Origin: Ohtaekwangia koreensis
GTDB lineage: Bacteria > Bacteroidota > Bacteroidia > Cytophagales > Cyclobacteriaceae
DNA length: 64,000 nucleotides
Direction of reading: 5' to 3'
Assembly (NCBI RefSeq): GCF_900167975.1
Contig: NZ_FUZU01000001.1
Location: forward strand, 2,689,331-2,753,330
In this document: positions 21,454 to 55,183 of the stretch, in pieces
How the letters are laid out: each line of letters begins with the position of its first letter
Numbering within the stretch: the stretch's first letter is position 1
Notes under the pieces: generated by a model
What the model was told of the DNA's origin: nothing
What the model saw: only the letters and a program-made list of their open reading frames with translations
Databases searched by the model: none
Position numbers and translations under genes: made by a program

Positions 21454-23613
21454 ATGATGACGAGTTTAGTTCAAGGTGACGGCAAGAATCTCAGGACGTT
21501 AAGGAAATTTATAATTAGACTATACTTAACGGTGTGCTTGGTGAGTGTAAACCCTATAGTAAAAGCACAAGTATACCCATTTGACGATATACTGTTTGGC
21601 GTAGCGTATTACCATGAGTATATGCCTTATGAGCGGCTTGGGCAAGATGTAGCGTTAATGAAAGATGCCGGCATCAACTATGTTCGCTTAGGTGAATCAA
21701 CCTGGCAATTATGGGAGCCTAAAGAAGGAGAATTTGAATTCGCGTGGATGGACAAAGTTGTAAGCGCGATGCATAAAGCAGGCATTAAAGTAATCATCGG
21801 CACACCCACATATTCTATCCCGGCCTGGCTATACCATAAATATCCGGAGATAACAGCCATGCAGGAGAATGGACAACGACTGAAATATGGCATCCGTCAA
21901 AATGTAGATTTAACGAATCCTATATATCAATACTATAGTCAAAGAATTATAAAAAGAATCGTAGAACACTATAAAGCAAATCCCGCGGTTATAGGTTATC
22001 AGATCGATAACGAAACACATTCCAAGTGGCCGGATGATAAAGTGAATCACCTCCTATATATAGATTACCTCAAGAAAAAATTTCAGACCGTTGACAAAGT
22101 AAATATAGTATGGGGGCTTAACTATTGGGGGCAAGCTATAAATGAATGGGATGAGCTGCATCCTGCCAGCGGATTCAATCATCCGGGCTATAGGCTGGAG
22201 TGGGCGCGATACCAGCGATCTACGGTAACTGATTTTCTTTCTTGGCAGGCATCCATCGTTAAAAAATACAAAGCGCCTTCCCAATTTATTATGCACGACT
22301 TTGCCGGTGCTCTTCGCAGCGATTTGGATCAAAAGGCAATTTCAGCCGTACTCGACTATGCAGGCGTGAATATATATCATTACGATCAGGATCGATCCGA
22401 TGGACTTCGCATCGCCATGCAGGGTGATTTTACGCGCTCGCTGAAAATGAAGAATTACCTGGTTCCAGAAACCAACGCAGCTTCCATTGGCTGGAATTCA
22501 AAAGAACAGTTTCCTCCCTATGATGGACAGCTAAGACTAAATTACTACTCGCATATAGGCTCGGGCGCCAACCTGGTTTCCTATTGGCATTGGCACTCTT
22601 TGCACAACGGTATAGAACAATACTGGAGAGGAGTTCTTCCCCATGACCTCAAACCCGGAAGAATATATAAAGAGATTAGCACCATCGGGCACGAGCGTGA
22701 AAAGCTTGGCAGGAAGCTGGTGAACATCAGGAAGAATAACAAAGTAGCGATTCTCTTCAGCGAAGACTCGGATGTTGCTCTCAACCTTCAACGTTTTGAT
22801 AACAACTTCAAAGGCCCTGAAACCGGCCCCTGGGATGCTGACGGAGCCTATCAAAAGATACTTGCAAGGTTCTACAAAGTTTTATACGATTTGAATGTTG
22901 AAGCAGACTTTGTATTTGATAATACAGAAGATCTTAGCAAGTATGAGGTATTGATTGTACCATCCCTGTATATAGCAAGCGATGCAATGCTGAGCAGGCT
23001 TAATGCTTTTGTGAAAAATGGAGGCCACCTCATGGTAACTATGAAAAGCGGGTTTTGTAATGAGTACTCAGCTGTACGCCATGAGACAATGCCTGCTGGT
23101 CTTACAGATATAGCAGGATTTACCTACCAGGAATTCTCAACCCTGCGTTCGCCGGTTCCCTTGAAGGGAGATCCGTTCAAAGTAAATGGTGAGAACTATA
23201 CCGAGCAATGGGCCGAGTTTTTACAGACTACCACAGCTAAGCCACTTGCTTTTTACGATCATCCGGTGTTCGGTATATACCCCGCTATAGTACGAAACAA
23301 CAGCGGTAAAGGAGCGATGACTTATTTCGGAACTATACCTTCAGAAAGCATTATTAAAAGTATACTAACATCTGAACTGCGTAAACTGAATCTTCTTGGA
23401 ACAGATCAACAATTACCGGAGAGAGTAAAAGTAAAACACGGCCTCAGCAATAGCGGAAAGTATCTTCACTTATACTATAACTTTTCACCGGCTGACAAGA
23501 CGTTCCCTTACATGTATGACGATGGAGTCGACCTGCTCACAGGCCAGGCAGTTCAAAAAGGTATAACCCTGATGCTAAAAGCCTGGGATGTGGCCATCAT
23601 CGAAACAAAGTAG
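21454..23613 (+). CDS. GH42 beta-galactosidase
   Basis: The 719-residue protein has a positively charged leader and hydrophobic segment ending IVKAQ (about residue 39), so it is exported. The GH42 barrel (about 45-420) contains LFGVAYYHEYMPYERLG, the acid/base motif GYQIDNETHSKW (E187) and the nucleophile motif YLVPETNAAS (E339). A trimerisation-like Rossmann domain (about 430-610) and a small C-terminal beta domain follow. GH42 enzymes remove terminal beta-linked galactose, often from plant galactan or galactosyl side chains, and some members act on arabinosides. It is first in a (+) run with GH44, PorP/SprF-SPOR and a hybrid regulator. TATA words are unusually frequent in its DNA (see findings). 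Confidence 0.88.
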   Translation: MMTSLVQGDGKNLRTLRKFIIRLYLTVCLVSVNPIVKAQVYPFDDILFGVAYYHEYMPYERLGQDVALMKDAGINYVRLGESTWQLWEPKEGEFEFAWMDKVVSAMHKAGIKVIIGTPTYSIPAWLYHKYPEITAMQENGQRLKYGIRQNVDLTNPIYQYYSQRIIKRIVEHYKANPAVIGYQIDNETHSKWPDDKVNHLLYIDYLKKKFQTVDKVNIVWGLNYWGQAINEWDELHPASGFNHPGYRLEWARYQRSTVTDFLSWQASIVKKYKAPSQFIMHDFAGALRSDLDQKAISAVLDYAGVNIYHYDQDRSDGLRIAMQGDFTRSLKMKNYLVPETNAASIGWNSKEQFPPYDGQLRLNYYSHIGSGANLVSYWHWHSLHNGIEQYWRGVLPHDLKPGRIYKEISTIGHEREKLGRKLVNIRKNNKVAILFSEDSDVALNLQRFDNNFKGPETGPWDADGAYQKILARFYKVLYDLNVEADFVFDNTEDLSKYEVLIVPSLYIASDAMLSRLNAFVKNGGHLMVTMKSGFCNEYSAVRHETMPAGLTDIAGFTYQEFSTLRSPVPLKGDPFKVNGENYTEQWAEFLQTTTAKPLAFYDHPVFGIYPAIVRNNSGKGAMTYFGTIPSESIIKSILTSELRKLNLLGTDQQLPERVKVKHGLSNSGKYLHLYYNFSPADKTFPYMYDDGVDLLTGQAVQKGITLMLKAWDVAIIETK

Positions 23614-23711
23614 CGCAAGGGGTATAGTTGTGGTTCTCCACTATAGCATTTGGGTATAGCCCTACACGCAGAATTTTTAAGACAATAGATACAATCGTTA
23701 AACTCCTAAAA

Positions 23712-26471
23712 ATGGAAAAATCAATACTCTGCCAAATGAAAATGTGTCTGATCGGGGCGTTGCTGTTTTTTACAACAAGCACGGTGCTTGCCCAAAATGT
23801 AACGATTTCAGTGAATGCAGTTCAGAACAAACGCTTGATTTCCCCATACATCTACGGCCGAAATGAAGGCTTTGACAAACCTGCACAATTTTATAAAGAT
23901 GCAGGGTTGCGCTTTGCGCGGTTAAACGGAGGTAATAACGCATCAGGTTATAACTGGCGTAAAAGAATTACGATTCATCCCGACTGGTATAATAATGTTT
24001 ATGGTACTGATTGGGATGCACTAGCACAAAAAATTAATGACAACTTTCCCAATATACAGGGCATGTTTGCCTTTCAGTTACTGGGCAGAGTAGCATCCAA
24101 TCCAAATAATAACTTCGATGACTGGGCTTACAACCAAGCACAGGGTTGGAGTGGTACTCATCAAAATTTAGCCGGTGGAGGAGTAGTCAATACAACGGGT
24201 GGAGGTCAAGCCTTGGTTGATGGAGATATGAATTTGTTCAGCAAGGTATGGCCGGCCGATTCTTCTGTTGAAATTCTTGATCATTGGTTTGGAGCCAATG
24301 GTAAAGGGTTTAACAAAAACCAGTTTGTGTACTGGAGTATGGATAATGAGACAGATATCTGGTTTGCTACTCATGACTGGGCTATGCCCACACAGTTATC
24401 CGCCGATGCCTTTATAGATCGCTACATTGAACTAGCGAAGAAAGCGAAAGCTTTATACCCGGGCATCAAGCTCTGTGGACCTGTTGGAACCGCAGAATGG
24501 TTTTGGTATAAATGGCAAGGTGAAAGTATAAATATCAATGGCAGGTATTATCCCTGGCTTGAGTATTTCATAAAACGTCTGGGTGATGAGTATAAAACAA
24601 CCGGTGTCAAACTGGTAGATGTATTTGATATCCATAACTATCCTTCCTATAATAATGATGCTGAGGCACTACAGGGACACCGGATATACTATGATGAGAC
24701 GTATGATTATCCAGGTTCAAATGGTATTAAGGGAAGTAAAGGTGGATGGGATAACTCACTTACAAAACAATATATATTCAAGCGTATCGATGGCTGGCTA
24801 ACCGAGCACTTTGGAGCGAACCATGGTATAACAGCCGGTTTGAGCGAATGGGGTACCATGTCCAGCAGCAACCCAAGCCTGGAGTCTGTTATCTATGCTT
24901 CACACCTGGGCACCTTTGCAAACAATGGCGTTGAACTGTTTTCACCCTGGAACTGGTCAATCGGCATGTGGGAAACATTACACCTCTTTGGCAGGAATGC
25001 AAAAAAATACAGCGTATCCAGTACTTCCTCTCTGGAGAACACCGTATCAGCTTACTCCTCGGTAAATGAAAATTCAGACTCTTTAACGGTGATCGTTGTC
25101 AACCGTGATATGGGCGCCTCGCGCACGGTAACCATCAATCTAAACAATTTTACGGTTGCCAACGGAACATACAAAACATTGCAGTTGTCGTCTCTGCCGG
25201 CAACAGAGACTTTCGTTTCCCACACGCAAAACGCATTGAAGTCAAATACAGTGACGGCAAATTCAAATTCACTTACCCTCACCGTGCCATCACTTTCTAC
25301 AACAGCAATTCTGTTGACCAAACCCGTAACGTATACCCTTAGTACTGCCGCTTCACCCGCTGCCGGTGGTACGGTGACAGGTGCAGGAACATATAATTCG
25401 GGAACCGCAGTAGCCGTAACTGCAACACCTGCTGCAGGATATACCTTTACTGGCTGGAGTGGCGATGCCACCGGGACGAATGCCATCACAACGGTGACTA
25501 TGACCGCCAACAAGTCTGTTACGGCAAACTTCCAGGCAATCAAATATACTCTTGCCACTATAGCAACGCCGTCTGTTGGCGGCACAGTAAGCGGCGCAGG
25601 AGAGTATGTTATGGGAAGCACGGCAACACTCACTGCAACACCGGCAGCGGGGTATATCTTCACCGGCTGGAGTGGCGATGCCTCAGGGACTTCCGCTTCC
25701 ACGACCATAACGATGAACGCCAATAAAACTGTTACAGCAAATTTCCAGTCACAGTCCGGCACAACGAAATATACTCTGACAACTATAGCTTCACCAACGG
25801 ATGGTGGCAGTATAACTGGAGCCGGAACGTATGATGCCGGCAGCGTAGTAACACTCACCGCAATACCTTCGGCCGGGTATACCTTTACCGGCTGGAGTGG
25901 CGATGCATCCGGAACGGCTTCATCCACTACGGTAACGATCAGCAGCAACAAAACTGTTACTGCAAACTTCAGCATCACGAGCTTCACGCTTAGCGCTACC
26001 GTTGTGCCGGCTGCTGGCGGTTCGGTAACAGGATCCGGTACCTATATATCTGGAACCGTGGTGCCGATAGAAGCGGTAGCTGCACCCGGATATACTTTTA
26101 CCGGTTGGAGCGGAGATATAGCAGGTAGCTCTTCTTCCCAAACAGTTACCATGAATCGTGACCTCGCTATTCAAGCCAACTTTCAGCCTGAAGGAGATGT
26201 CTTGAAAATTCCAAAGTTATTCTCACCGGACAACCATGGTGATGTAAGTACAGAAGCCTGGAATATTGTGAACGCTTACCTCTTGGATGGTTGTGACATC
26301 GTCATCTACAACCGGCAGGGACAGAAAGTATATTCTTCTACCGGGTATGCCAGTCCCTGGGACGGAACTTCAAACGGTAAACCGCTTCCCGATGGTGCGT
26401 ACTTTTATTTAATCCGGTATCCTGATAATACAAAACAAACTGGTAGTGTTACCATCGCCCGACTGAAATGA
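23712..26471 (+). CDS. GH44 endoglucanase/xyloglucanase with four InlB-type repeats and a type B T9SS domain
   Basis: I prefer the ATG at 23712, which starts a signal peptide (MEKSILCQMKM...VLAQ); the frame is open to 23628. The 919-residue product has a GH44 catalytic region (about 20-540): SPYIYGRNEG, RFARLNGGNNASGYNW, acid/base motif YWSMDNETDIW (E213) and nucleophile motif GLSEWGTM (E379). GH44 enzymes cut beta-1,4-glucan backbones, and many prefer xyloglucan. Four about 70-residue divergent InlB B-repeats follow (about 541-825). The last 90 residues (IPKLFSPDNHGDV..., VIYNRQGQKVY, WDGTSNGKPLPDGAYFYLI) form the gliding-motility-type (type B) T9SS sorting domain. The stop overlaps the start of a PorP/SprF gene by 4 bases. 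A close paralogue lies at 44310-46628. Confidence 0.9.
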   Translation: MEKSILCQMKMCLIGALLFFTTSTVLAQNVTISVNAVQNKRLISPYIYGRNEGFDKPAQFYKDAGLRFARLNGGNNASGYNWRKRITIHPDWYNNVYGTDWDALAQKINDNFPNIQGMFAFQLLGRVASNPNNNFDDWAYNQAQGWSGTHQNLAGGGVVNTTGGGQALVDGDMNLFSKVWPADSSVEILDHWFGANGKGFNKNQFVYWSMDNETDIWFATHDWAMPTQLSADAFIDRYIELAKKAKALYPGIKLCGPVGTAEWFWYKWQGESININGRYYPWLEYFIKRLGDEYKTTGVKLVDVFDIHNYPSYNNDAEALQGHRIYYDETYDYPGSNGIKGSKGGWDNSLTKQYIFKRIDGWLTEHFGANHGITAGLSEWGTMSSSNPSLESVIYASHLGTFANNGVELFSPWNWSIGMWETLHLFGRNAKKYSVSSTSSLENTVSAYSSVNENSDSLTVIVVNRDMGASRTVTINLNNFTVANGTYKTLQLSSLPATETFVSHTQNALKSNTVTANSNSLTLTVPSLSTTAILLTKPVTYTLSTAASPAAGGTVTGAGTYNSGTAVAVTATPAAGYTFTGWSGDATGTNAITTVTMTANKSVTANFQAIKYTLATIATPSVGGTVSGAGEYVMGSTATLTATPAAGYIFTGWSGDASGTSASTTITMNANKTVTANFQSQSGTTKYTLTTIASPTDGGSITGAGTYDAGSVVTLTAIPSAGYTFTGWSGDASGTASSTTVTISSNKTVTANFSITSFTLSATVVPAAGGSVTGSGTYISGTVVPIEAVAAPGYTFTGWSGDIAGSSSSQTVTMNRDLAIQANFQPEGDVLKIPKLFSPDNHGDVSTEAWNIVNAYLLDGCDIVIYNRQGQKVYSSTGYASPWDGTSNGKPLPDGAYFYLIRYPDNTKQTGSVTIARLK
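25332..26186 (+). repeat. Four tandem in-frame repeats (divergent InlB B-repeat domains)
   Basis: Four units of about 70 codons start near 25332, 25547, 25769 and 25982. Each encodes the pattern GGTVTGAGTY, then TATPAAGYTFTGWSGDA and T-ANFQ. They are protein-domain repeats inside the GH44 gene, probably a stalk or adhesive spacer between the catalytic region and the sorting domain. Confidence 0.9.
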
Positions 26472-27868
26472 AACTACCATTCAAACTTTTGCTTTTTGCT
26501 GCGGTATGGTGCATAATGTATCCTCTACAGGCACAGCAGAGCCCCGTCTATAGCCATTACTTTCTTAATCCGTTTTTATATAATCCATCGTTCGTGGCAC
26601 CCAACGGGTATACTGAAGTATACCTGAACTATAGAAATCAATGGGCCGGTGTTGAAGGAGCACCTGTTACCGGAACACTAAGTTTTCATTTGCCACTAAG
26701 CTATAAGGCTGGTATAGCCTTTACGGGTTCTCAGGATAAGGCAGGCGTACTGAAAACAACTACGGGGCTTGCAACCTTTGCGTATCAGGTATACCTGGGA
26801 AACAAGGTTGGCGACAATCATAAGATTGCCTTTGGACTGTCGGCGGGTGTAACCAGTGTTTCTATTCGTGCCGATGATGGTTACTCAAACGACCCGGTGG
26901 TTGGCGCAACATCCACGTTTGAAGGACAGTTTGGTATGCATTATCAGCGCGGTAATTTTAAGCTTGCTTTTGCTATACCTCGTCTTTTCAATACCTATGT
27001 TGCATCTGAGAACAACTTTAACAAGGTTGGCATCAGCCAGGTTCGCAATACTATATCGTCTGCAAGCTATAGTATATATTTTAGTGATCGGATGGTTTTT
27101 GAACCTATGGTTATATACCGTACCAATGATAACACGAATGCTCAGCTGGAAGGCTTAGGTTCTCTGGTAATTAATAGTATAGTTTGGGTTGGAGGATCGT
27201 ACCGACAACGTTATGGCGCTTCGGCGTTTGCCGGAACGAATATAAAGGACAAACTGAAAGTAGGATATGCTTACGAATTTGCAACAGGCAGTACAAATAC
27301 GTTGGGCGCAGGCACACACGAAATACAACTGATCGTACAACTCGGAAAAAAGAAAAGACCGGAAGCAAAAACAAAACTAAAAACTATAGGTGGGTCTTCG
27401 CAGGTTAGTGAAGCTAATGAAACCGGTATATCGAATACAAATGAAACTATAGTACAGCAGGAGAGACCAGCGGAAACAGATAAGTCTTCGAGCCCTGTTG
27501 AAACAGCTCAACACCAAGAGGAAGCTAGGCAAGCAGAGATGCATGCCAGTGCGCTCGTTCCGGTTGATACACCTGATGGAAGTCAGACTAAGGTAATTAC
27601 ACAGTCACTTTCCGGAGAAGGATTAGCCCCTGGACATTATGTAGTGGTAGGTGTATTCCGTTCGCCTGCGTATGCGAAACAATATGCTTTTAACCTTAAA
27701 CGAGCGAACTACCCGGCCGAAGTGGCGTACTATCATGAAAAGCATTACTATATAGTTCACATGAACAATGCGCCACCCACCCGGGAGCTGGCGCAAAAGC
27801 TTTGCAATGAATACAGACGGATGTCGCGGTATACCTTTCGTGACACATGGATTCTCAGTATTGAATGA
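26468..27868 (+). CDS. PorP/SprF-family T9SS outer-membrane protein fused to a SPOR domain
   Basis: The 466-residue protein has a signal peptide ending LQAQQ. A PorP/SprF beta-barrel region (about 22-295) follows, with the family opening SPVYSHYFLNPFLYNPSF and NYRNQWAGVEGAPVT. A Glu/Thr-rich linker (about 300-385) leads to a C-terminal SPOR-like domain (GHYVVVGVFRSPAYAKQYA ... YYIVHMNNAP). In Flavobacterium, SprF is needed for secretion of SprB, and PorP/SprF proteins commonly pair with substrates bearing type B sorting domains. This gene overlaps by 4 bases a GH44 gene with such a domain, so a dedicated partner role is likely. SPOR domains bind denuded peptidoglycan, so the fusion may tether the barrel to the cell wall. 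The next gene begins immediately after the stop. Confidence 0.87.
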   Translation: MKLPFKLLLFAAVWCIMYPLQAQQSPVYSHYFLNPFLYNPSFVAPNGYTEVYLNYRNQWAGVEGAPVTGTLSFHLPLSYKAGIAFTGSQDKAGVLKTTTGLATFAYQVYLGNKVGDNHKIAFGLSAGVTSVSIRADDGYSNDPVVGATSTFEGQFGMHYQRGNFKLAFAIPRLFNTYVASENNFNKVGISQVRNTISSASYSIYFSDRMVFEPMVIYRTNDNTNAQLEGLGSLVINSIVWVGGSYRQRYGASAFAGTNIKDKLKVGYAYEFATGSTNTLGAGTHEIQLIVQLGKKKRPEAKTKLKTIGGSSQVSEANETGISNTNETIVQQERPAETDKSSSPVETAQHQEEARQAEMHASALVPVDTPDGSQTKVITQSLSGEGLAPGHYVVVGVFRSPAYAKQYAFNLKRANYPAEVAYYHEKHYYIVHMNNAPPTRELAQKLCNEYRRMSRYTFRDTWILSIE

Positions 27869-30800
27869 GTGTGCGAAACTGATATAAGTGATTTTAACTT
27901 TCCAATAGTCGTGAACGAGAACAGTTTTTTCGCATTCAGTTGGTTTCTCGTAATGTTCTTGTCGGTTTTTTCATCGGACAAAATATTTGCGCAAAGACAT
28001 CGCTTTGTACATATCGATAGTCGTCAGGGCTTGTCTAATAACTTCGTAAAAAGTATTTATAGGGACAAAACCGGTTTTATATGGATCGGAACCGAATCAG
28101 GGCTTAATCGGTTTGACGGTTATTCTATCAAGATATACCGCAACAACCTCGCGGATTCATCTTCTCTCATTAACGATAATATTAGCAGACTATTCGAGGT
28201 ACCAGGGGGAGAGCTTGGCATTGTTACTGATCATGGTGTTTGCTTCTATGATCCAACCACGGAGAGATTCTCAACCAAGAGTCATTTCCTGGATAAAAAA
28301 TCAATTGAAAATCCAGCGGATGTCACAAATATAGTTCATGACAATGCCGGTAATTATTGGCTTGTACTAAATAACAGTGGGCTGGTGTGCTTTAATGAAA
28401 AAAGAAAGAACATAGCTTCCTTAAAGCACATTGATGGTGATGTCTCAACCATCAGTACCAACAATATAACTTCTTTCGCACCGCATCATGATGGAAGTTA
28501 CTGGATTGCGCATTCGAATGGTATTGTGGAGAATGCTGCGCTTGATAAAGGAAAACTCAGAGTGGTAAAGCGTATTTGTTTACCGACTTCAATGCGCAAG
28601 ACCGGCAAACCTTTGCATTGTGAGTTGATGATTGATAAGGATGGGGACCTTTGGAGTTTTATAGCTAACGTGGACGAAGGTGTGTTTTATTACAATACAG
28701 ATAAAAACAAAATATACCACCTTAAGAAAGATTCTATACCTACGGCATTGAGTTCTGATCTGATTACCGGACTTGTTCAGGATGATCAGGGCTATATATG
28801 GATTTCTTACAACGGTGCCGGAATTGATATACTGGATAAAAAGAGTTTTTCGATACGAAATGTTTCACAGGATTCAGATATAGGCACAGCGCTTAGTGTT
28901 CATTCAACTACTACGATATATAAAGACCCTGATGGTATAATTTGGCTCGGTACCTATAAAAATGGATTAAACTTCTTCCATGAAAGTATGGTGCCGTTTC
29001 CGATTTATAACCGACACTCCAAACGGTATGCCTTGCCCTTTGAAGATATAAATCATTTTATAGAAGACAAGAAAGGAAATCTGTGGCTGGGAACAAACGG
29101 AGGTGGATTGATATACCTGGACAGAAGCAGTGGTAGATTTACAACGTACAGGCATAATCCTAAGGATCCGTATAGCCTGAGTAGTAATGTTGTTGTGAGT
29201 TTGTGTTTAGACCACGAAGGCAAGTTATGGATCGGTACGTTCTTTGGCGGGCTAAATTGTTTTGACGGTGGTAAATTTACCCGGTATCAGCACCGTGTTA
29301 ATGACTCCGGGAGTCTTTCTGATAAAAGTGTGTGGGAAATTTTTGAAGATTCAAAACACCAGCTATGGATCGGCACTCTTAACGGAGGTGTTAATCTCTT
29401 TAACAGAAAAACGAAAACATTTACACGTTACTCTCACGTACAGCAAAAAGCACTTCAATCAGGGTATATATCAACCGTTACTGAAGACACGAAGGGAAAC
29501 CTGTGGTTCGGAACTTCCTTAGGCATCGACGTGCTACAGAAAGCCTCTGGAAATATAGTGCATTTCGAATCGGATAGGAATAATCGGACATCGCTTGCCA
29601 GCAATATTATTACCGGTATACTCGAAGATTCCAGGGGACGCATGTGGATAGGAACAGTCGGAGGGCTCAGCGTATGGCAGAGAAAAACAAATCGGTTTAC
29701 CAATTTTACAGAGAAGGATGGACTGCCTCATAATACAATTATGTCTATGGAAGAAGATGCTGATGGCCGATTATGGCTCAGTACTTCCGATGGACTTGCG
29801 TGTGCCACTCCTATAGCATTTGGTGATAGCATTCAGCTCCGTTTTACCAACTACTCCGAGGCTGACGGTTTACAAGGACAACATTTTAATGAAGATGCGG
29901 CGATCAGGTTAAAAACCGGAGAACTTGTGTTTGGTGGAGACAAGGGCTTCCATATTTTCAAGCCAAAAGATATAGTGCATAATAAAACTATACCACGTCT
30001 TGTGTTTACAGATTTTCAGTTGTTTAACAGAAGTATACATCCGGGACGTGAAGAGACCAATAATGGCCCTTTGTTGTCGTCTTCCATTACCACAAATCCT
30101 TCTGTTTTGCTGGCAGCAAGCGATAATGTTTTCTCAATAGAGTTCGCTGCGCTTAACTTTATACACCCGTCTAAAACGAGGTATAAATACAAACTTGAAG
30201 GTTTAAATGACGATTGGATGCTTGCTGATGCCAACCACCGGCGAGTAACCTTTACCAACCTTGATGCAGGCCACTATACATTTCGTGTACTTGCGACTAA
30301 CAATGATGGCGAGTGGAGTGAAGAAGGTATATCCCTTCCCATCAAAGTGCTTCCACCGTTCTGGAAATCAGGAGGAGCTTTTCTTACCTATATATTCCTT
30401 TTGCTTGCCGGGTTTTATATAACGCATAAAATAATACAGAAAGGCGAGCGAATGAAGTTCGCTATCAAGCAACAACAGGTGGAAACTATACGGTCACTCG
30501 AGCTGGATAAGATCAATACAAACTTCTTTACCAACGTGAGTCACGAATTTAGAGCTCTGCTTTCACTCACCATTTCTACCCTTAAAAAACTTAGTGAACA
30601 GGTTAAAGATATTGACCAACGAAAGGATGTTGATCTCATGCAACGATACGCCAAGCGATTGTTGAGCCTCGTGAACCAGCATCTTGATTTCCGGAAAATG
30701 GAAGTTCGTGATATTCGCTTTGATCCATTCGAGGGAGACATCATTCAGGTGGTTCGCGACACGGTATATTCGTTTACAGATCTTTCGGAGAAGAAAAGTA

Positions 30801-32044
30801 TAAAGCTCACCTTCGAGTCGAGTATATCTTCGCTGGAAGCTATATTCGATTACGAAAAGGTTGAGAGGATATTGTTCAACCTTCTTTCCAACGCCTTCAA
30901 ATTTACGTTGGACTCTGGAGCGATCTCGGTAATTGTCGATGTTAAAGAATTATCAGAAAACAGCATCATAGAAATCATTGTAAAAGATACTGGAATTGGT
31001 ATACCGCCAGACCAGCGGGAGGTGGTCTTTGAGTGCTTTCTTCAAAATGAAATACCAAGCTCTATGGTGAACCAGGGCGGTGGTATCGGACTCGCTGTGA
31101 CAAAAGAATTTGTACGGATCCATGGAGGAAGCATCATGGTTGAAAGTGAAGTTGGTAAAGGAAGTTCTTTTATTGTATTACTACCGCTTAAGAAAATTGC
31201 TGACTCTATTCCGGAAGCGATGATTAACCCGGTTAACAATGAGGTAGATAGTGTAGTAGACGGTGGTTCTATATCTATATCGAGAGGAAAGCCACTCATC
31301 TTGCTAGTAGAACATAACGAAGATTTTCGTTTGTATCTGAAAGAGAGCCTCAAGATACCGTATGATGTTATCGAAGCAAAAATGGGCGAAGAGGGGTGGC
31401 AGAAAACCATTTTGAAGTACCCGGATTTAATCATTACCAATGAGATAATGCCCGACTTGAATGGTATTAATCTTTGCAAAAAGATTAAATCAGATCAACG
31501 GGTAAATCATATACCGGTAATTTTGATCTCGGGCTATTCAGATGAAGAGCAATGGCTTGAAGGATTTGAGGTAGGTGCTGAGGCCTATATGTCGAAACCG
31601 CTCAGTATTCCGATATTGATCTCGAGAATCCGGAACTTAATTTCATTGCGAAAAACAATAGAGAACTTAGTTGAAAAAGAGTATGTACTTAGTGAAAGTG
31701 CGATGGCTCCTTTGGATAATATATTTATACGTGACGTTGTTACGGTAATCGAAAAGAATATAGCAAACAAAGAACTAACCGTCTCGGATCTAAGTCGCGA
31801 ACTTGGTTTAAGTCGTGCACAGTTTTTCAGGAAAGTACAGGAGCTTACCGGTAAATCTCCATTAGAGCTGATTCGTTTTATTCGCATGCAACATGCAGCA
31901 CAGCTTCTTGAGAAGAGTCAGCTCCTCGTGTCCGAAATTACCTGCCGGGTAGGGTTCACCAACTCCAGATATTTCGCACGCCTTTTCCAAAGACAATACC
32001 ATGTATTGCCGTCAGAGTATGCCAGGGCTAAACGGAGAGATTAA
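27869..32044 (+). CDS. Hybrid two-component regulator (HTCS) with degenerate receiver
   Basis: A GTG at 27869, immediately after the previous stop, gives 1391 residues. A GTG at 27911 would give a tidier signal peptide. Domains: signal (to about 42), double propeller (45-690), Y_Y_Y (765-825), membrane helix (835-853), HisKA (880-945), HATPase (990-1105, NLLSNAFKFT, DTGIGIP, GGGIGLAV), receiver (1140-1255) and AraC HTH (1285-1385). H892 is present, but the usual HEFRTP reads HEFRAL, so the Thr at H+4 is Ala896. In the receiver the phosphoacceptor Asp is Asn1191 (DLIITNEIMPD), and the acidic pair is E1148-H1149 (LVEHNEDF). The DNA-binding domain looks intact. It probably regulates the GH42-GH44-PorP operon, by a mechanism not using canonical receiver phosphorylation. 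Confidence 0.92.
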   Translation: MCETDISDFNFPIVVNENSFFAFSWFLVMFLSVFSSDKIFAQRHRFVHIDSRQGLSNNFVKSIYRDKTGFIWIGTESGLNRFDGYSIKIYRNNLADSSSLINDNISRLFEVPGGELGIVTDHGVCFYDPTTERFSTKSHFLDKKSIENPADVTNIVHDNAGNYWLVLNNSGLVCFNEKRKNIASLKHIDGDVSTISTNNITSFAPHHDGSYWIAHSNGIVENAALDKGKLRVVKRICLPTSMRKTGKPLHCELMIDKDGDLWSFIANVDEGVFYYNTDKNKIYHLKKDSIPTALSSDLITGLVQDDQGYIWISYNGAGIDILDKKSFSIRNVSQDSDIGTALSVHSTTTIYKDPDGIIWLGTYKNGLNFFHESMVPFPIYNRHSKRYALPFEDINHFIEDKKGNLWLGTNGGGLIYLDRSSGRFTTYRHNPKDPYSLSSNVVVSLCLDHEGKLWIGTFFGGLNCFDGGKFTRYQHRVNDSGSLSDKSVWEIFEDSKHQLWIGTLNGGVNLFNRKTKTFTRYSHVQQKALQSGYISTVTEDTKGNLWFGTSLGIDVLQKASGNIVHFESDRNNRTSLASNIITGILEDSRGRMWIGTVGGLSVWQRKTNRFTNFTEKDGLPHNTIMSMEEDADGRLWLSTSDGLACATPIAFGDSIQLRFTNYSEADGLQGQHFNEDAAIRLKTGELVFGGDKGFHIFKPKDIVHNKTIPRLVFTDFQLFNRSIHPGREETNNGPLLSSSITTNPSVLLAASDNVFSIEFAALNFIHPSKTRYKYKLEGLNDDWMLADANHRRVTFTNLDAGHYTFRVLATNNDGEWSEEGISLPIKVLPPFWKSGGAFLTYIFLLLAGFYITHKIIQKGERMKFAIKQQQVETIRSLELDKINTNFFTNVSHEFRALLSLTISTLKKLSEQVKDIDQRKDVDLMQRYAKRLLSLVNQHLDFRKMEVRDIRFDPFEGDIIQVVRDTVYSFTDLSEKKSIKLTFESSISSLEAIFDYEKVERILFNLLSNAFKFTLDSGAISVIVDVKELSENSIIEIIVKDTGIGIPPDQREVVFECFLQNEIPSSMVNQGGGIGLAVTKEFVRIHGGSIMVESEVGKGSSFIVLLPLKKIADSIPEAMINPVNNEVDSVVDGGSISISRGKPLILLVEHNEDFRLYLKESLKIPYDVIEAKMGEEGWQKTILKYPDLIITNEIMPDLNGINLCKKIKSDQRVNHIPVILISGYSDEEQWLEGFEVGAEAYMSKPLSIPILISRIRNLISLRKTIENLVEKEYVLSESAMAPLDNIFIRDVVTVIEKNIANKELTVSDLSRELGLSRAQFFRKVQELTGKSPLELIRFIRMQHAAQLLEKSQLLVSEITCRVGFTNSRYFARLFQRQYHVLPSEYARAKRRD

Positions 32045-32137: not shown

Positions 32138-32239
32138 ATGTCGCGGTTGAAACGAAAGTTAAGAATGCTTCTTATTCTTGAATTGACAGGATATATACTG
32201 ATCTTTTTAATTTTTGGGTGGCTTATTATACTGATTTGA
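32138..32239 (+). CDS. Possible 33-residue single-pass membrane microprotein
   Basis: An ATG at 32138 opens a 33-codon frame starting MSRLKRKLRM, strongly positive, followed by about 23 hydrophobic residues ending GWLIILI and a TGA. The layout is that of a small inner-membrane protein with its N-terminus inside. There is no homology evidence. It lies 93 bases after the hybrid regulator, so it could be translated from that transcript. It may also be a chance frame. Confidence 0.25.
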   Translation: MSRLKRKLRMLLILELTGYILIFLIFGWLIILI

Positions 32240-47281: not shown

Positions 47282-50200
47282 ATGAAGTTTTTGCCCGGAA
47301 GAAGCTGCAAAGTATATTTTCTCTGTTTTTTTACCTTCATGGTAGGAGCCCTATTTGGCCAAAGCGAACAGTTTAGATTCAAACAAATTGATTTAAAGGA
47401 TGGCCTATCGCACCCAGACGTATGGACAATATTTAAAGACAGTCGCGGCTTTGTGTGGATTGGCACTGCCGATGGTCTAAATCGTTTTGATGGCTATGCA
47501 ATAAAATCTTTTATCAATGATCCTCTTGATACAACCTCTCTTCCGGGTGATGGCGTGTACAAGATTTTTGAAACCCCTGATCGGAGATTGTTGATTCTCA
47601 CTACCGCTGGTTTCACACTTTATGATCCAGAAAATGAGACGTTTGAACGACACTTGGATTCTTTCTTTAAAAAGTACAGGATATCTGAGCGTCTTTATAA
47701 TATCATAAAAGATAGCGATGGTTTCTACTGGTTTGTGCAACCAGATAAATTAGTGAGATATCACCCCAAACAAGATGGATACATCGTCATTGAAAACATC
47801 GCCGCTGATCCATTGTCTATAGTTAAAGATGAAATTACAGGCTTCTGCGTTGATAAAAACAGAAATTATTGGTTAATACACGCTAATGGCATAATTGAGA
47901 GAATAGAAATCCATAATCAACAAGGAGTAGTGGCCGAAAGAGTTGAGACTCTTCAGGATGTGGATAGGGCAGTGAATAATTATCAAATTACTGCTGACAC
48001 TGAAGGGGATCTATGGATTTCTGCACCTGGGGCAACAAATCGTGTCTTTGTCTATGATGTCGAACAAAAAAAGTTGACTGGGCGAGGTATAGTTTCACAA
48101 CTCAATGCAAAATTCGTATCGGGGCAAACGGTGGCTGACAACGACCTGATCTGGGTTGGAACAGACCACGGAGGAATCAATATTTTAGATAAGCGGACAG
48201 CATCTATTAAAAACCTCTTTCATGTTGACGGCGACCACCTGAGTCTTGCATCGAATGCAATAACCTGTCTGTACAAGGATGACCAAGGAATTGTTTGGAT
48301 CGGTACCTATAAGCGTGGGGTGAGTTACTACCATCCCAATATTTACCAGTTCGATATATACAAGCACAATGGAACCGATCCGCACAGCTTACCTTTCGAG
48401 GATATTAACAGTTTTGAAGAAGATAAAAAGGGAAACCTCTGGATCGGAACGAACGGAGGGGGACTCTTGTATTTCGATCGACACAAGGGGACATTTAAAC
48501 AATATCTCAACGTACCCGGAAATCAAAACAGCCTCAGCGGAAATGTCGTCGTAAGTTTATGCCTGGACACGGATGATAACCTGTGGATCGGAACATACAA
48601 GAATGGACTTAATAAATTCGATGGCAAAAATTTCACTCGCTTCACCAGTACTCAAGGTGACACTACATCGCTTCCTAGCATGGATGTTTGGGAGATTTTC
48701 CAGGACTCGCAAGAACGCATTTGGATTGGAACCACCGATGCCGGTGCCGCGCTGTTTGATAAAAAAACAGGAAAATTTCACCGGCTAAAACTATGGGGCA
48801 CCAATGCGTTGCAATCACCAACTATCGAGGCAATATGTGAGGATCGGCATGGTAATATATGGTTTGGCACGTTTGGAGGAATCGATGTTTTGTCAGCGAA
48901 CGACAAAACGTTTAGACATTTTGGATATTCGGCTAAGCCGAATTGCCTTAGTAGTAACACTATTTTTGATATAATGAAGGATTCCAAGGGACGCTTGTGG
49001 ATCGGGACTGCTAGAGGTTTAAACATTTTCGATGAGTCAATTAATGGCTTTATCGACTTTCAAGAAAACAGTATAAAAAGCACAGTTGTACAAATACAGG
49101 AAGACAATATTGGCGATATTTGGATTAGCACGTTGAATGGGCTTTCAAAAATTACACTCGCTGCAGGCTCGTTACATGGCGCGTCATTGAAGCGCTATAA
49201 TGAGTTGGATGGACTGCAGGGCAGGCAGTTTAATTCCAATGCGGGTTTCAAAACCAAAAACGGGGAGCTCCTTTTCGGCGGTCCTACTGGCTTTAATATT
49301 TTGGGGCGCAAGCAGCACGGCAAGGACCTTCCAATAGAGAAAGTCATTTTTTCAGAACTTGAGCTTTACGAAAAGCGTGTTGACATAGGCGAAAAAATCG
49401 ATGGCTTGGTTATTTTAAAAAAATCGATCTCGGAAACTGACCAGATTACTCTTCCTCCCAATAAGAATTTCTTTTCGTTGAAGTTATCCTCATTAAACTA
49501 CCTCAACCCCGAGCGTGACCATTATATATATCAGCTTGAAGGATTAAATGAAGATTGGTTGCCTGTGGATTCAAACAGTCACGAGATCGTATTTAATGGC
49601 TTAAATCCAGGTAGATACTTATTACGCGTTCGGGCATCAAATGGAGACGGGGTGCCCAGTAAAAATGATGCGATTTTAGCAATCATTATTCAACCTCCGT
49701 TTTGGAAAAGCAGAGGTGCCTTTTTACTCTACGGATTGTTTGTAATCGTTGTCCTTTTCTTTACACGAAAAGCTATTCAACACCGTGAGAAAATGAAATT
49801 TTCTATCGAACAGGAACGCTCTGAAATGCAAAGATTGCATGAACTTGACATGCTAAAAGTGAAATTTTTTACCAACGTAAGTCACGAGTTTAGGACACCA
49901 CTGACGCTTATCCTTACACCGATGGAGAAGCTGATTAAAAAAGCGAAGGATCCAGAGCAATTAACGCAATTTCAACTGGTTCTTCGAAATGGAAAGCGTC
50001 TAATGAATTTAGTAAATCAATTGTTGGATTTTAAAAAATTAGAAGTCCACGAAATACCGTTTAGGCCGAGTAAAGGCGATGTTATTGCCTTTATCAGGGA
50101 CACCGTATTTTCATTTTCCGATCTCGCAGAAAAGAAAAACATCAATCTTTCATTTGATAGTGTTGTCAATTCTCATCAAGTACTTTTTGACCATGATAAA

Positions 50201-51439
50201 CTTGAAAAGATTTTATTTAATCTTCTCAGTAATGCCTTCAAGTTTACACTTGAAAATGGTGGCGTTTCTGTAAGGGTCGATTTACTATTGGAAGCAAGTG
50301 AACAACTGCTGCGCATTGATGTAAGCGATACGGGGATAGGTATACCAGCCGACAAACTTGACAAGATCTTTGAACCATTTTTTCAAACAGATATTCCGAA
50401 AAGTGTCCTAAACCAAGGCAGTGGAATTGGTCTGGCGATCACCAAGGAATTCGTGAAAATACACGGTGGAAGCATCCAAGTGAAAAGTGAGGTAGGTGTC
50501 GGAAGCTCTTTCAAGGTGATGTTGCCTCTGCGAGAATCGCAGGACACGCTTGATCAAATTGAAGACGCTGCTATGCCGGATTTGCAATACCGGGAAGCGA
50601 GCGAGTCAAGCTACATGGATGAGATAAGTTCGGAGAAGCTGTCTGGTAAAACAGAAAAGAAGTCGTTGCTTCTTATTGACGACAATGATGATTTTCGCTT
50701 TTATCTAAGAGATAATTTAAAATTCCTCTACACAATACATGAAGCAGCCAATGGTAGCGATGGTTTAGATTGTATATTATCACTTCAACCCGATTTAATT
50801 GTAAGTGATATCGCCATGCCTTACATGGATGGCATTGAATTGTGTACCAAGGTTAAATCGGACGAAAGGGTGTCTCACATTCCGGTAATCCTTCTTACCG
50901 CCAGATCTAACGAAGAACAACGCATCGAAGGATTGAAAGCGGGCGCAGACGATTATATTACTAAACCATTCAATTTTGAAGTACTTGAGGCACGGATTAA
51001 CAATCTGTTGCACCAACGCGAGAAATTTCAAAGAGCATTTCGTAAAACATTGGATATCAAGTCAAGTGAACTTCAAATAACTCCGTTGGATGTCAAATTC
51101 ATTGAAAAGGCTGTTAAAATTGTTGAGGCAAACATATCCTCTCCTTCCTTCTCTATTCAAGAGCTTGGGATGGAACTCGGAATTAGCAGGGCATATGTTT
51201 TTAAGAAAATTCAGGCTTTAAGTGGAAAAACACCACTCGAGTTTATTAGAACAATTCGATTGCAACATGCCGCGCAATTACTTGAACGAAGTCAGCTAAC
51301 CGTGCGGGAAGTAGGCTACAGTGTTGGTTTTAATACTCCTAAATATTTTACCAAGTACTTTAAAGAACAATACGGAGTGTTGCCATCAGAATACCTCGCG
51401 TTAAAAAAGAAAGGTCACGAAGATCCTGAGATTGGGTAA
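47282..51439 (+). CDS. Hybrid two-component regulator (HTCS), canonical
   Basis: The 1385-residue protein has a signal peptide ending GALFGQS. A periplasmic propeller follows (about 30-670; repeats such as NLWIGTNGGGLLYFD), then Y_Y_Y (745-805) and a membrane helix (814-832). HisKA has H868 in VSHEFRTPLTLILTPME. The HATPase (955-1090) has LLSNAFKFT, DTGIGIP and GSGIGLAI. The receiver (1128-1245) has LLIDDNDDF, phosphoacceptor D1176 in DLIVSDIAMPYMDG and KPF. The C-terminal AraC HTH (1275-1380) contains GYSVGFNTPKYFTKYFKEQ. All phosphorelay residues are present, in contrast to the paralogue at 27869-32044. It likely binds a glycan fragment in the periplasm and activates the flanking susC2 locus and/or the divergent enzyme run. 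Confidence 0.94.
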   Translation: MKFLPGRSCKVYFLCFFTFMVGALFGQSEQFRFKQIDLKDGLSHPDVWTIFKDSRGFVWIGTADGLNRFDGYAIKSFINDPLDTTSLPGDGVYKIFETPDRRLLILTTAGFTLYDPENETFERHLDSFFKKYRISERLYNIIKDSDGFYWFVQPDKLVRYHPKQDGYIVIENIAADPLSIVKDEITGFCVDKNRNYWLIHANGIIERIEIHNQQGVVAERVETLQDVDRAVNNYQITADTEGDLWISAPGATNRVFVYDVEQKKLTGRGIVSQLNAKFVSGQTVADNDLIWVGTDHGGINILDKRTASIKNLFHVDGDHLSLASNAITCLYKDDQGIVWIGTYKRGVSYYHPNIYQFDIYKHNGTDPHSLPFEDINSFEEDKKGNLWIGTNGGGLLYFDRHKGTFKQYLNVPGNQNSLSGNVVVSLCLDTDDNLWIGTYKNGLNKFDGKNFTRFTSTQGDTTSLPSMDVWEIFQDSQERIWIGTTDAGAALFDKKTGKFHRLKLWGTNALQSPTIEAICEDRHGNIWFGTFGGIDVLSANDKTFRHFGYSAKPNCLSSNTIFDIMKDSKGRLWIGTARGLNIFDESINGFIDFQENSIKSTVVQIQEDNIGDIWISTLNGLSKITLAAGSLHGASLKRYNELDGLQGRQFNSNAGFKTKNGELLFGGPTGFNILGRKQHGKDLPIEKVIFSELELYEKRVDIGEKIDGLVILKKSISETDQITLPPNKNFFSLKLSSLNYLNPERDHYIYQLEGLNEDWLPVDSNSHEIVFNGLNPGRYLLRVRASNGDGVPSKNDAILAIIIQPPFWKSRGAFLLYGLFVIVVLFFTRKAIQHREKMKFSIEQERSEMQRLHELDMLKVKFFTNVSHEFRTPLTLILTPMEKLIKKAKDPEQLTQFQLVLRNGKRLMNLVNQLLDFKKLEVHEIPFRPSKGDVIAFIRDTVFSFSDLAEKKNINLSFDSVVNSHQVLFDHDKLEKILFNLLSNAFKFTLENGGVSVRVDLLLEASEQLLRIDVSDTGIGIPADKLDKIFEPFFQTDIPKSVLNQGSGIGLAITKEFVKIHGGSIQVKSEVGVGSSFKVMLPLRESQDTLDQIEDAAMPDLQYREASESSYMDEISSEKLSGKTEKKSLLLIDDNDDFRFYLRDNLKFLYTIHEAANGSDGLDCILSLQPDLIVSDIAMPYMDGIELCTKVKSDERVSHIPVILLTARSNEEQRIEGLKAGADDYITKPFNFEVLEARINNLLHQREKFQRAFRKTLDIKSSELQITPLDVKFIEKAVKIVEANISSPSFSIQELGMELGISRAYVFKKIQALSGKTPLEFIRTIRLQHAAQLLERSQLTVREVGYSVGFNTPKYFTKYFKEQYGVLPSEYLALKKKGHEDPEIG

Positions 51440-52003
51440 TGTGAGGTAATGGTCCATCTTTCTAGATTTATACGTACAGCACTGATCATTTAGATTTTTG
51501 ATCTCACCTGGCAATCGGAGTGGAGTTAATTTTGAGCTTCCTTATTGTCATGAAACGTTATTCCAGGAAGTACTTAAAATGGGTCACATTAACCGAAGTG
51601 TTGCTTTTAACTTTCGCGCTGTTGAGCGTGTTGGCGTTTCTTTATCTATGTCTGTACCTGTAGACACTTTGTCATCCATAAGGATTCACCTCTAAGGTTT
51701 CCCTGAGTTTTAACTCCCGTTTTTTAGAATCCACAAAACTCATTTTTTGCGTTTAATTTCCTGGACAAATCGTCTGAAACTAGATCAAACGTCTTGAATG
51801 AGTTGACAAAAAATAGCAGTCTTAATTATCAGACTCGTTGGGCTCATCAATTGGACCACCCGTAATTTTTAACAAACCATATTTACTGCAAACGATTACA
51901 GTCGTTAAGAAGCGCGAATCGATTGCATCAGTATTATCAAGACGTTGTCGATCCTGCGCACGGGTAAATCGTCGATCCAAATTTCTAACCAAAACCAAAC
52001 CTT
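51440..52003. other. Intergenic region upstream of the second susC
   Basis: No gene is supported in this 564-base stretch; short open frames at 51498-51695 and 51838-52137 lack features. It should contain the promoter of the susC2 locus and includes the operator-like element annotated at 51886-51901. TAGATTTT at 51490-51497 is 7 of 8 to the -7 consensus but lies far upstream. Confidence 0.5.
51886..51901 (+). promoter_or_regulatory. Operator-like near-palindrome upstream of susC2
   Basis: CTGCAAACGATTACAG is symmetric at 12 of 16 positions about a central CG and shares the GCAAACG half with the element before susC1 and the beta-helix gene. It lies 102 bases before the susC2 ATG. No TAnnTTTG element follows at 7 nt, so the match is weaker. 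Confidence 0.3.
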
Positions 52004-55000: not shown

Positions 55001-55183
55001 ATACGAAGAATACACTTGAAGACTTTAAAAGTGTATGCGACCGCCACAAACGTGTTTACGATAACTAAATATTCAGGTATGGATCCTGAAATTGGATCTT
55101 GGGATCCTCTCACCGCAGGTATTGATGATGGCTACTATCCTCAACCACGAATGATCACGTTTGGTTTAAACTTATCCCTATAG
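52004..55183 (+). CDS. SusC/RagA-type TonB-dependent outer-membrane transporter
   Basis: The 1059-residue protein has a signal peptide ending TVAAQQ. A carboxypeptidase-regulatory-like domain follows (ITGIVKDMPGSIMPGVNVFV, about 27-105), then the TonB box region (NEIVVIGYGEVQRKDL), a plug with YVIDGVKI and ATAIYGAAATDGVILITTK, and a long barrel ending ITFGLNLSL. It is slightly longer than the other SusC in the window (983 residues) and only moderately similar to it. SusD starts 5 bases after its stop. It should import oligosaccharides released at the surface by the GH5 lipoproteins and GH44 enzymes. Confidence 0.95.
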   Translation: MKKNLYRWLVLVACSALVCQTVAAQQQKITGIVKDMPGSIMPGVNVFVKGTSIGTTTDSNGEFAIEAQTGQILTFSFIGYKSHEVTVGEQTRIEVFLNEDVETLNEIVVIGYGEVQRKDLTGSISSVKGEDLRKTNATTLEQALQGRVPGMVIQQVSGQPGGGVSVQIRGITSLSGASPLYVIDGVKINSPNSGMAGTTDGGMNPLAGINASEIESIEVLKDASATAIYGAAATDGVILITTKRGKQQSPTVEYRTYTGVQQLLQRLPVMNLREHATFMNARAAEPTWNFDARPEFQNPQYLGEGTDWQDALFKTSRVSEHSISLSGGDEKTRYYLSGTYYQNDGIAFGSKFNRTSVRLNLDNKTTKWLKLGTSIQFVNIDEKVSSTTSGVIGKALSMTPDIAVQNTDGSWGGAHNDDPWVPRTENPYALAMINKDEANRKQVYANVYAEVNIVEGLVLRNVVGGNFSIYNRDRFNPSYVMGNLVRSESGASADYSDNNHVEMSTTVTYNRSFLEKYKLTAMAGHESQLDQGRGLSASRQGFPTNTVETISGGDPAKSTNGGTKGHSAIESYFGRLDFGYNDRYLLTGNARYDGNSMYAEENRWILSYSGVLAWKINNESFFKSINNVDELKLRVSTGLTNRAGGRSYSYASTLNTASVSSNLGGVAVVNDEIGNPALKWEQTHYNNIGLDAAFFNSRVSFSVDFYERKTEDLAMQITLPLYSGTGLGTWPPGSLRAPWVNIGSMNNKGFDFRISSDNLRGKALTWTTELNVSHNKNKIIKLNTEDASIQKTYNRTVAGRSIGDFYGYVVEGVYATPTDFLGDEANGVLPHPRPVKNNEPIPYGNAAGSIWYGDLKFKDINGDEIIDERDQQFLGSPIPKVQLGLNNTFIYKNFELNIFFSSNIGNKVYNATRKNHEDPQGNSAYFKGLSNYANLALVDPNGSASDVNNVYVTNPDTKISGLRNDKTNENQRVTDLYVEDGSFVKCKSISLGYNLPLNLIRRIHLKTLKVYATATNVFTITKYSGMDPEIGSWDPLTAGIDDGYYPQPRMITFGLNLSL

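Follow-up and report, generated by a model that had tools for sequence, protein, structure and literature searches.

How should a hybrid two-component regulator be understood when key residues of its own phosphorelay are gone and an intact paralogue is encoded further along the same DNA? This question is raised by HTCS-1, a degenerate regulator found in a stretch of 64,000 nucleotides of the Ohtaekwangia koreensis genome (the window). Like the HTCSs of polysaccharide utilization loci in Bacteroidota, HTCS-1 is surrounded by GH, SusC and SusD genes and has the domain order Reg_prop sensor, Y_Y_Y, HisKA, HATPase, receiver and AraC; unlike them, it has no phosphoacceptor Asp, an incomplete metal site and no phosphatase Thr, and its output half has evolved under relaxed constraint. 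Here, we propose, with a probability of roughly 0.55, that HTCS-1 is a former regulator of its polysaccharide cluster whose output arm fell into disuse once the intact HTCS-2, beside susC, took over.

Architecture and Altered Residues of HTCS-1

The gene probably starts at GTG 27911, which aligns with a GTG in all of the six relatives compared and gives a protein of 1377 aa. Although this start is favoured, residues are numbered throughout from GTG 27869, and the numbers H892, A896, E1148-H1149 and N1191 are exact for ORF 27869-32044 counted from that codon; all of these residues are present where a sequence-only reading of the DNA had placed them. Matches above the Pfam cut-offs were obtained for Reg_prop, Y_Y_Y, HisKA, HATPase_c, Response_reg and HTH_18, so that sensor, HisKA, HATPase, receiver and AraC domain stand together in one chain, as in any HTCS. 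The residues of a working His-Asp phosphorelay are instead replaced, with N1191, H1149 and A896 at three positions and S1221 in the place of the catalytic Thr. The receiver is still clearly recognised (PF00072, 61 bits; cut-off 30.2) but, with N1191 and H1149, it belongs to the aspartate-less type, and the kinase, which has lost the Thr at H+4 and kept the His and the acid at H+1, is by its sequence of the phosphatase-less HisKA type. Further private changes include P897L, I901T, P904T, T1221S, A1222G, D1239A and F1245L, among others, and in the DHp 8 of 29 near-invariant sites are altered (K883N, T896A, P897L, I901T, P904T, E906K, N927Y and L938H).

TABLE 1. Features of the window discussed in the text.
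Feature	Coordinates	Strand	Remarks
GH42 beta-galactosidase-like	21454..23613	+	
GH44-like enzyme	23628..26471	+	repeats and CHU_C type IX secretion signal
PorP/SprF-like protein	26468..27868	+	directly upstream of HTCS-1
Spacer, PorP/SprF stop to HTCS-1 start	27869..27910	+	42 nt
HTCS-1, degenerate hybrid two-component regulator	27911..32044	+	longest ORF starts at 27869; GTG 27911 likely start
H-box H892-L897	30542..30559	+	H892 and E893 retained; T896A (H+4), P897L (H+5) lost
Receiver acidic pair E1148-H1149	31310..31315	+	second position Asp in 44/44 other rows
N1191 replacing phosphoacceptor Asp	31439..31441	+	alignment with relatives
S1221-G1222 replacing Thr-Ala	31529..31534	+	alignment with relatives
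Microprotein 1	32147..32239	+	30 aa, TTG start, one hydrophobic stretch, invariant Glu; 3' of HTCS-1
HTCS-2, intact paralogue adjoining susC	47282..51439	+	canonical residues
Microprotein 2	51550..51663	+	37 aa, ATG start; 3' of HTCS-2, 5' of susC
SusC-like TonB-dependent receptor	52004..55183	+	Plug and CarbopepD_reg_2 domains
SusD-like protein	55189..56826	+	

The region in front of the gene is altered as well. In six relatives the spacer preceding the HTCS measures 90-251 nt and always contains TTGTATCTTTA; this 5' segment, common to all six, is missing at HTCS-1, and a search allowing at most one mismatch did not find TTGTATCTTTAG within the window.

A Loss Private to One Branch

HTCS-1 was aligned with 44 other rows (43 distinct proteins), the nearest of which are 67-72% identical to it. 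All 44 are canonical at the His, the H+1 Glu, the H+4 Thr, the Pro, the second acid, the Asp and the Lys. Since every other row has the His, Thr, Asp and Lys, the loss is private, and the disappearance of the phosphoacceptor Asp, of the second metal-binding acid and of the phosphatase Thr is limited to the HTCS-1 branch. The sequence-only reading, which favoured a regulator working without Asp phosphorylation, had itself named normal Asp and Thr in the relatives, and hence private decay, as an outcome speaking against it, and this is the pattern found in all 44 rows. In the Glu-His acidic pair to which it drew attention, H1149 is unusual and E1148 is ordinary (42 of the 44 rows have Glu there, the other 2 Asp), whereas its description of HTCS-2 as canonical at all residues stands. 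HTCS-2 is only 43% identical to HTCS-1; the closest paralogue in the genome, also canonical, is the gene at C6:2890246 (67%). A scan of genome contigs, which confirmed 26 loci with one genome per species searchable, gave no additional close relative beyond L056, whose protein equals L031, and L051, a short contig with part of the sensor.

Relaxed Constraint in the Output Half

On the HTCS-1 branch, the dN/dS of the cytoplasmic half, AraC domain included, is five times the background (0.288 vs 0.057; 2dlnL 62.3), with 0.33 in the receiver and 0.302 vs 0.039 in the AraC domain, values that are approximate at so high a divergence (some 1.4 neutral changes per codon). The periplasmic sensor, at 0.189 vs 0.165 (2dlnL 0.6), falls within the range of the control branches (0.092-0.284). 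Private substitutions are distributed in the same way: they affect 77 of 370 sites in the four cytoplasmic domains, vs 32 of 911 over three control lineages (p 3e-21), and 35 of 395 sensor sites vs 151 of 1231 (p 0.07, toward fewer in HTCS-1). In HisKA, receiver and AraC domain, near-invariant sites were struck no less than the others; in the HATPase they were spared (3/51 vs 21/77; p 0.002). Constraint has been relaxed in DHp, receiver and AraC domain, and not in the sensor. The claim that the AraC domain is intact agrees with its Pfam score and predicted fold, but 6 of its 30 near-invariant positions are changed, vs 10 of the 54 others.

Two simpler descriptions of this pattern were set aside. 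A single relaxation fraction for the whole protein fits worse than separate fractions for sensor and cytoplasm (2dlnL 11.2), and a recent swap of the sensor by recombination is disfavoured because neutral branch lengths are alike in sensor, kinase, receiver and AraC domain (1.37-1.48). Elsewhere in the window, PorP and HTCS-2 have evolved normally.

Alternative Readings of the Degenerate Gene

A plain pseudogene, in early decay and with its function gone, would have lost catalytic residues privately, as HTCS-1 did, and would fit both the missing 5' segment and a sister species that lacks the gene at the corresponding locus. However, the frame contains zero stops across 1377 codons, whereas a branch that was neutral for a quarter of its length should have gathered about 20 nonsense events. 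A long-dead pseudogene is disfavoured because of this unbroken frame; moreover, the sensor is under normal constraint (dN/dS 0.19, with a value of 1 rejected at 2dlnL 71.3) and the shared relaxation fraction fits worse, which makes this fate very improbable. Unlikely too, if somewhat less so, is the proposal of the sequence-only reading, a transcription regulator that needs no phosphorylation and would act either through a dimer change brought about by ligand or through constitutive binding to DNA. The first AraC recognition helix, SRAQFFRKVQELTGK, is unaltered. Furthermore, AlphaFold2 predicts the receiver-AraC fragment with the same fold as a canonical relative; a changed arrangement was looked for in these models, and confidence (pLDDT 85.4 vs 85.3; pTM 0.53 vs 0.51) and the order of helices and strands were the same, as far as a shallow alignment of 9 rows allows. 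The inhibitory S/CHIP interface motif reads NHIP instead of SHIP (with the AraC D and K present, positions assigned by eye), and HTCS fragments altered in this motif bind DNA unphosphorylated (PMC11253607). The same paper describes two HTCSs which, like HTCS-1, depart from the standard phosphorelay or interface: BT4236 lost the His, whereas HTCS-1 keeps the His and lost the Asp, and BT2391 is a repressor with an altered interface motif, whereas any output of HTCS-1 is putative. HTCS-1 also resembles the aspartate-less receivers and pseudo-receivers covered in PMC4395418 and PMC12632262, with D to N as in RitR, the second acid lost and Phe to Leu at K+2 (F1245L), a Leu that moves CheY toward its active state (PMC12632262); it differs from them in that its receiver belongs to a one-chain HTCS with a kinase and arose on one branch, and any output activity is putative. 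Against this reading, near-invariant AraC sites were not spared and the second HTH carries changes. An evolved phosphorylation-independent DNA binding is thus unsupported, because the AraC domain is relaxed as much as the receiver; what stands of the proposal is that HTCS-1 has lost the residues that Asp phosphorylation of its receiver requires.

Somewhat more credible, though still doubtful, is repurposing as a phosphatase-less sensor kinase that would give phosphate to the HTCS-2 receiver, in trans or in a mixed dimer, leaving its own receiver and AraC domain free to drift. H892 and E893 are kept, whereas T896 and P897 are lost. In work on four other HisKA kinases, kinase activity depended on the acid at H+1 and phosphatase activity on the Thr/Asn at H+4; in CrdS, Ala at two Pro positions lowered phosphatase and kept kinase activity (both PMC3510030). 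The constrained sensor, the spared HATPase sites and the open frame point the same way, and HTCS tethering has been argued to permit promiscuous phosphotransfer (PMC11253607). However, the DHp itself is relaxed, and there is no sign of convergence between the two proteins because HTCS-2 keeps the relatives' residues, as compared by eye, at the eight changed DHp sites.

A Proposed Takeover by HTCS-2

The arrangement of related loci bears on the reading that we prefer, the takeover of the cluster by HTCS-2. In a sister species, represented by what is apparently a metagenome bin, the matching locus (G002:C5) has no HTCS-1 gene and runs GH42, secreted enzyme, PorP, GH39 (95%), fucosidase (92%), GH44 (90%), HTCS-2 (79%) and SusC (83%). 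This absence is not special to HTCS-1, because the window genes at 34670, 39217 and 41736 also lack a match there. An intact HTCS adjoins susC in both species. G002, G005, G140, G166 and G184 each contribute one more locus, five altogether, where a relative of HTCS-1 directly precedes a susC.

In the proposed course of events, HTCS-2 would have taken over the regulation of the cluster, and the receiver and DNA-binding arm of HTCS-1 would have fallen out of use, so that Asp phosphorylation of the receiver would no longer be possible and the AraC domain would no longer serve its old promoter. The protein would still be produced, perhaps through read-through from the GH42-GH44-PorP genes. Total disuse fits the front half poorly because the sensor is constrained, the frame open and the HATPase sites spared; whatever function is left would then belong to the sensor and kinase half, with HTCS-1 most plausibly serving HTCS-2 as a partner in the membrane, and it may still act as a phosphatase-less kinase or in a dimer. 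Further points count against the takeover: in a kinase-only tree HTCS-1 groups with the G140/G166/G184 genes and not with those of G002/G005 (support 56), and the GH42 gene upstream also has a raised dN/dS (0.585 vs 0.101, four taxa).

Microproteins 3' of the HTCS Genes

Each HTCS of the window is followed by a very small ORF (Table 1). An initial view of the conserved 3' block as a regulatory DNA element was dropped since its codon patterns point to coding. The encoded protein is hydrophobic, 30-37 aa long and has an invariant Glu. A profile search of 390 genomes of the family gave 36 matches to it, 27 of which were no more than 200 nt away from the stop codon of an HTCS, and five members searched gave zero Pfam or NCBIfam matches. 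At G002:C5, the HTCS-1-type microprotein persists 3' of PorP. The family resembles small membrane proteins that act on sensor kinases, such as MgrB on PhoQ, in its very short length, its hydrophobic character and its link to a sensor kinase; this likeness concerns the microproteins only, and unlike MgrB and PhoQ their tie to the HTCS is gene order alone. Tentatively, this HTCS subfamily may have a dedicated partner, namely a membrane protein of 30-37 aa whose invariant Glu lies close to where the hydrophobic stretch begins and which is encoded between HTCS and susC, and here the output-dead HTCS-1 and the two microproteins might together tune HTCS-2 in the membrane, a speculative idea. If true, it would explain why the HTCS-1 sensor is constrained beside a drifting output half and why the microprotein has outlived its HTCS in the sister species.

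Conclusion

If the microprotein family acts on HTCSs, it would bring a further level of control to regulators that form a large and well-studied class. HTCS-1 itself appears to be a one-chain sensor-regulator caught in the act of giving up its output but retaining its input, next to a sister species without the gene at the same place, and the replacement of one regulator by another inside polysaccharide clusters would thereby become directly testable.

Residues Lost From HTCS-1

By domain content, the degenerate ORF studied here (HTCS-1), located in a genome of 7.24 Mb, is a complete hybrid two-component system. GTG 27911, which aligns with a GTG in the six relatives compared, is a likelier start than GTG 27869, from which residues are numbered. 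On re-reading of the ORF, the residues called in the sequence-only reading (Asn1191, Ala896, E1148-H1149 and H892) were exact. The question it raised, whether Asn1191, Ala896 and H1149 are conserved in orthologues, was answered in the negative, as all of the 44 other rows of the alignment (43 distinct proteins, three partial) have the normal Asp, Thr and Asp. At positions 897, 1222, 1243 and 1245 the same 44 rows read Pro, Ala, Lys and Phe (HTCS-1 has T896A and P897L), and they share H892 and E893, both kept in HTCS-1. Glu occupies position 1148 in 42 rows, with Asp in the remaining two, and 43 rows have Thr at 1221, the other one Ser. The nearest relatives, in genomes G002 (71%), G005 (72% over 897 aa) and G006 (67%), are all canonical, as is a 67% paralogue in the same genome. 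HTCS-1 has thus lost the phosphoacceptor Asp, the second residue of the acidic pair and the Thr needed for phosphatase activity, and in this sample of one genome per species the loss is private.

According to the available part of one survey, pseudo-receivers are common, making up about 6% in a representative set of bacteria; the Asp is missing from 2.0% of receivers (PMC12632262). HTCSs outside the standard relay are also on record in the portion seen of PMC11253607, such as BT4236, which lacks the His, whereas HTCS-1 keeps the His and lacks the Asp. On these partial sources, an Asp-less, His-keeping HTCS is therefore a variant rather than a new kind.

Constraint Along the Protein

HTCS-1 groups with the G002 gene in the full-sensor protein tree (support 100; G002 being the only one of G002 and G005 included), and with the G002/G005 genes in the trees of the C-terminal sensor (93), receiver plus AraC (77) and whole cytoplasm (50); the kinase-only tree places it instead with the G140/G166/G184 genes (56). 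In the cytoplasm its terminal branch has a length of 0.345 and that of G002 one of about 0.05; in the sensor the two lengths are 0.213 and 0.169.

For each of four lineage representatives, private changes were counted at sites where the other three agree. In the sensor, 35/395 such sites are changed in HTCS-1 (controls 38/398 to 68/428) and in Y_Y_Y 4/48 (controls 0/44, 0/44 and 7/51), whereas HisKA (13/60), HATPase (24/128), receiver (24/98) and AraC domain (16/84) all exceed controls of 0 to 8%; the membrane segment (5/25) and two short linkers (5/10 and 11/22) are likewise raised. A purpose-written codon model on eight genes gave dN/dS values, on the HTCS-1 branch versus background, of 0.189 versus 0.165 for the sensor, 0.261 versus 0.074 for the kinase, 0.333 versus 0.040 for the receiver and 0.302 versus 0.039 for AraC. 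Six control branches ranged from 0.092 to 0.284 in the sensor and from 0.037 to 0.149 in the cytoplasm, the top value belonging to the stem common to G002/G005. Near-invariant sites are changed no less often than others in HisKA, receiver and AraC, and are spared in the ATPase (3/51 versus 21/77 of its other sites). The loss in HTCS-1 therefore extends past the phosphorelay: the output half is relaxed and the sensor constrained.

The gene appears not to be simply dead. Neutral evolution along a quarter of its branch should have left about 20 nonsense changes in 1377 codons, and none is observed, an argument that is weak for the kinase (3.0 expected) or receiver plus AraC (4.1) alone; separate relaxation fractions for sensor and cytoplasm beat one shared fraction (2dlnL 11.2).

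Gene Neighbourhood and the Sister-Species Locus

Features of the window and of the compared loci (L numbers)
Feature	Position	Strand	Remark
GH42	21454-23613		upstream of HTCS-1
GH44-type secreted enzyme (conserved repeats and C-terminus), then PorP/SprF-like gene	23628-27868		also 5' of HTCS-1 relatives in L046, L047, L048, L051
HTCS-1	27869-32044	+	
Microprotein 1	32147-32239	+	30 aa; conserved block 3' of HTCS-1
GH39, beta-helix protein, fucosidase, two GH2, GH44 on other strand			between HTCS-1 and HTCS-2
HTCS-2 (intact paralogue)	47282-51439	+	
Microprotein 2	51550-51663	+	related ORF 3' of HTCS-2
SusC, SusD, one gene without Pfam match, two GH5			after HTCS-2
Stretch compared with L104, L105	26468-56826		
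HTCS-1-type microprotein of the sister species	L104:11736-11828		directly 3' of PorP
Other microproteins	L003:5674-5778; L034:5723-5830		
PKS/NRPS-like ORF, ~1580 aa	L147:7878-12602; L153:6631-11391		between HTCS and microprotein; type by eye, first residues

Relatives of HTCS-1 in G002, G005, G140, G166 and G184 immediately precede a susC. In a second cluster of the own genome, and in G006, relatives of both HTCS-1 and HTCS-2 lie in one region and are canonical. The matching locus of the sister species (G002:C5) repeats the gene order of the window minus HTCS-1, the beta-helix gene and both GH2 genes. In its gap, blastn found the PorP, microprotein and GH39 flanks and short chance-like pieces only, and neither blastn nor tblastn with eight HTCS proteins gave a credible HTCS remnant (best tblastn match 20 residues, E 0.004). 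The gene at this position has therefore degenerated in one species and is missing from another. The spacer 5' of HTCS-1 measures 42 nt and lacks the segment TTGTATCTTTA, a putative promoter, found in 6/6 relatives compared. For HTCS-2, dN/dS is normal in both cytoplasm (0.086 versus 0.061) and sensor (0.112 versus 0.101).

Identities to G002:C5 are uneven and give the cluster a mosaic look: they reach 90-95% for GH39, fucosidase and GH44, and the flanking PorP (69%), HTCS-2 (79%) and SusD (77%) are much more divergent. GH42 is 88% identical to a copy in the second cluster, with dN/dS raised on its short window branch (0.585 versus 0.101, four taxa only).

A Microprotein Family 3' of HTCSs

The short ORFs 3' of HTCS-1, HTCS-2 and many related HTCSs form a family of hydrophobic, 30-37 aa proteins with a basic N-terminus and, as judged by eye, probably a single membrane span; besides the start Met, a Glu is the sole invariant residue among 28 rows. 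When 32,397 six-frame segments were first searched with a profile, matches fell exclusively 3' of HTCSs, plus G002:C5, in loci that are biased towards this link, most having been picked around HTCSs. A less biased search, across 390 whole genomes of the taxonomic family, gave 36 matches in 18 genomes: 27 lie ≤200 nt 3' of a same-strand HTCS stop, two at 0.6-1.0 kb from an HTCS and four at ~8 kb, and three have no assigned HTCS: one in G050 close to the end of a contig, the G002:C5 copy, and one in G280 that falls within a frame of 754 aa and is probably a chance match. In two of the 8-kb cases (L147, L153) large ORFs separate HTCS from microprotein, and an ORF that is SusC-like by eye follows. 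Among 296 genomes across the phylum no match was found beyond the own genome. Five members had no match in Pfam or NCBIfam at E up to 1, and no publication on the family was among the matches listed, in a search whose coverage left out most subscription journals.

The contrast between pS (0.77) and pN (0.04), for L003 against L033 or L038, supports these ORFs being coding. In the HTCS-1 group, pN/pS is 0.3 to 0.6 in 28/36 pairs and above 0.6 in six; five of the six involve the G002:C5 copy (136 nt past the PorP stop, at a locus missing HTCS-1), and this copy may therefore be less constrained.

What Remains of HTCS-1

The sequence-only reading had proposed a regulator working without Asp phosphorylation; the modes of DNA binding that it offered are a poorer fit, since drift in the AraC domain resembles that in the receiver. 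HTCS-1 might instead be a kinase without phosphatase, and the retention of H892 and E893 together with T896A and P897L fits such a pattern in the part of PMC3510030 available; the DHp domain is relaxed as well, however, so this reading stands as a rival. The gene neighbourhood suggests a reason for the loss of output: HTCS-2 would have taken control of susC, and HTCS-1 would no longer use its output arm, made up of receiver and AraC domain. Any residual role of HTCS-1 would most plausibly lie on its sensor and kinase side.
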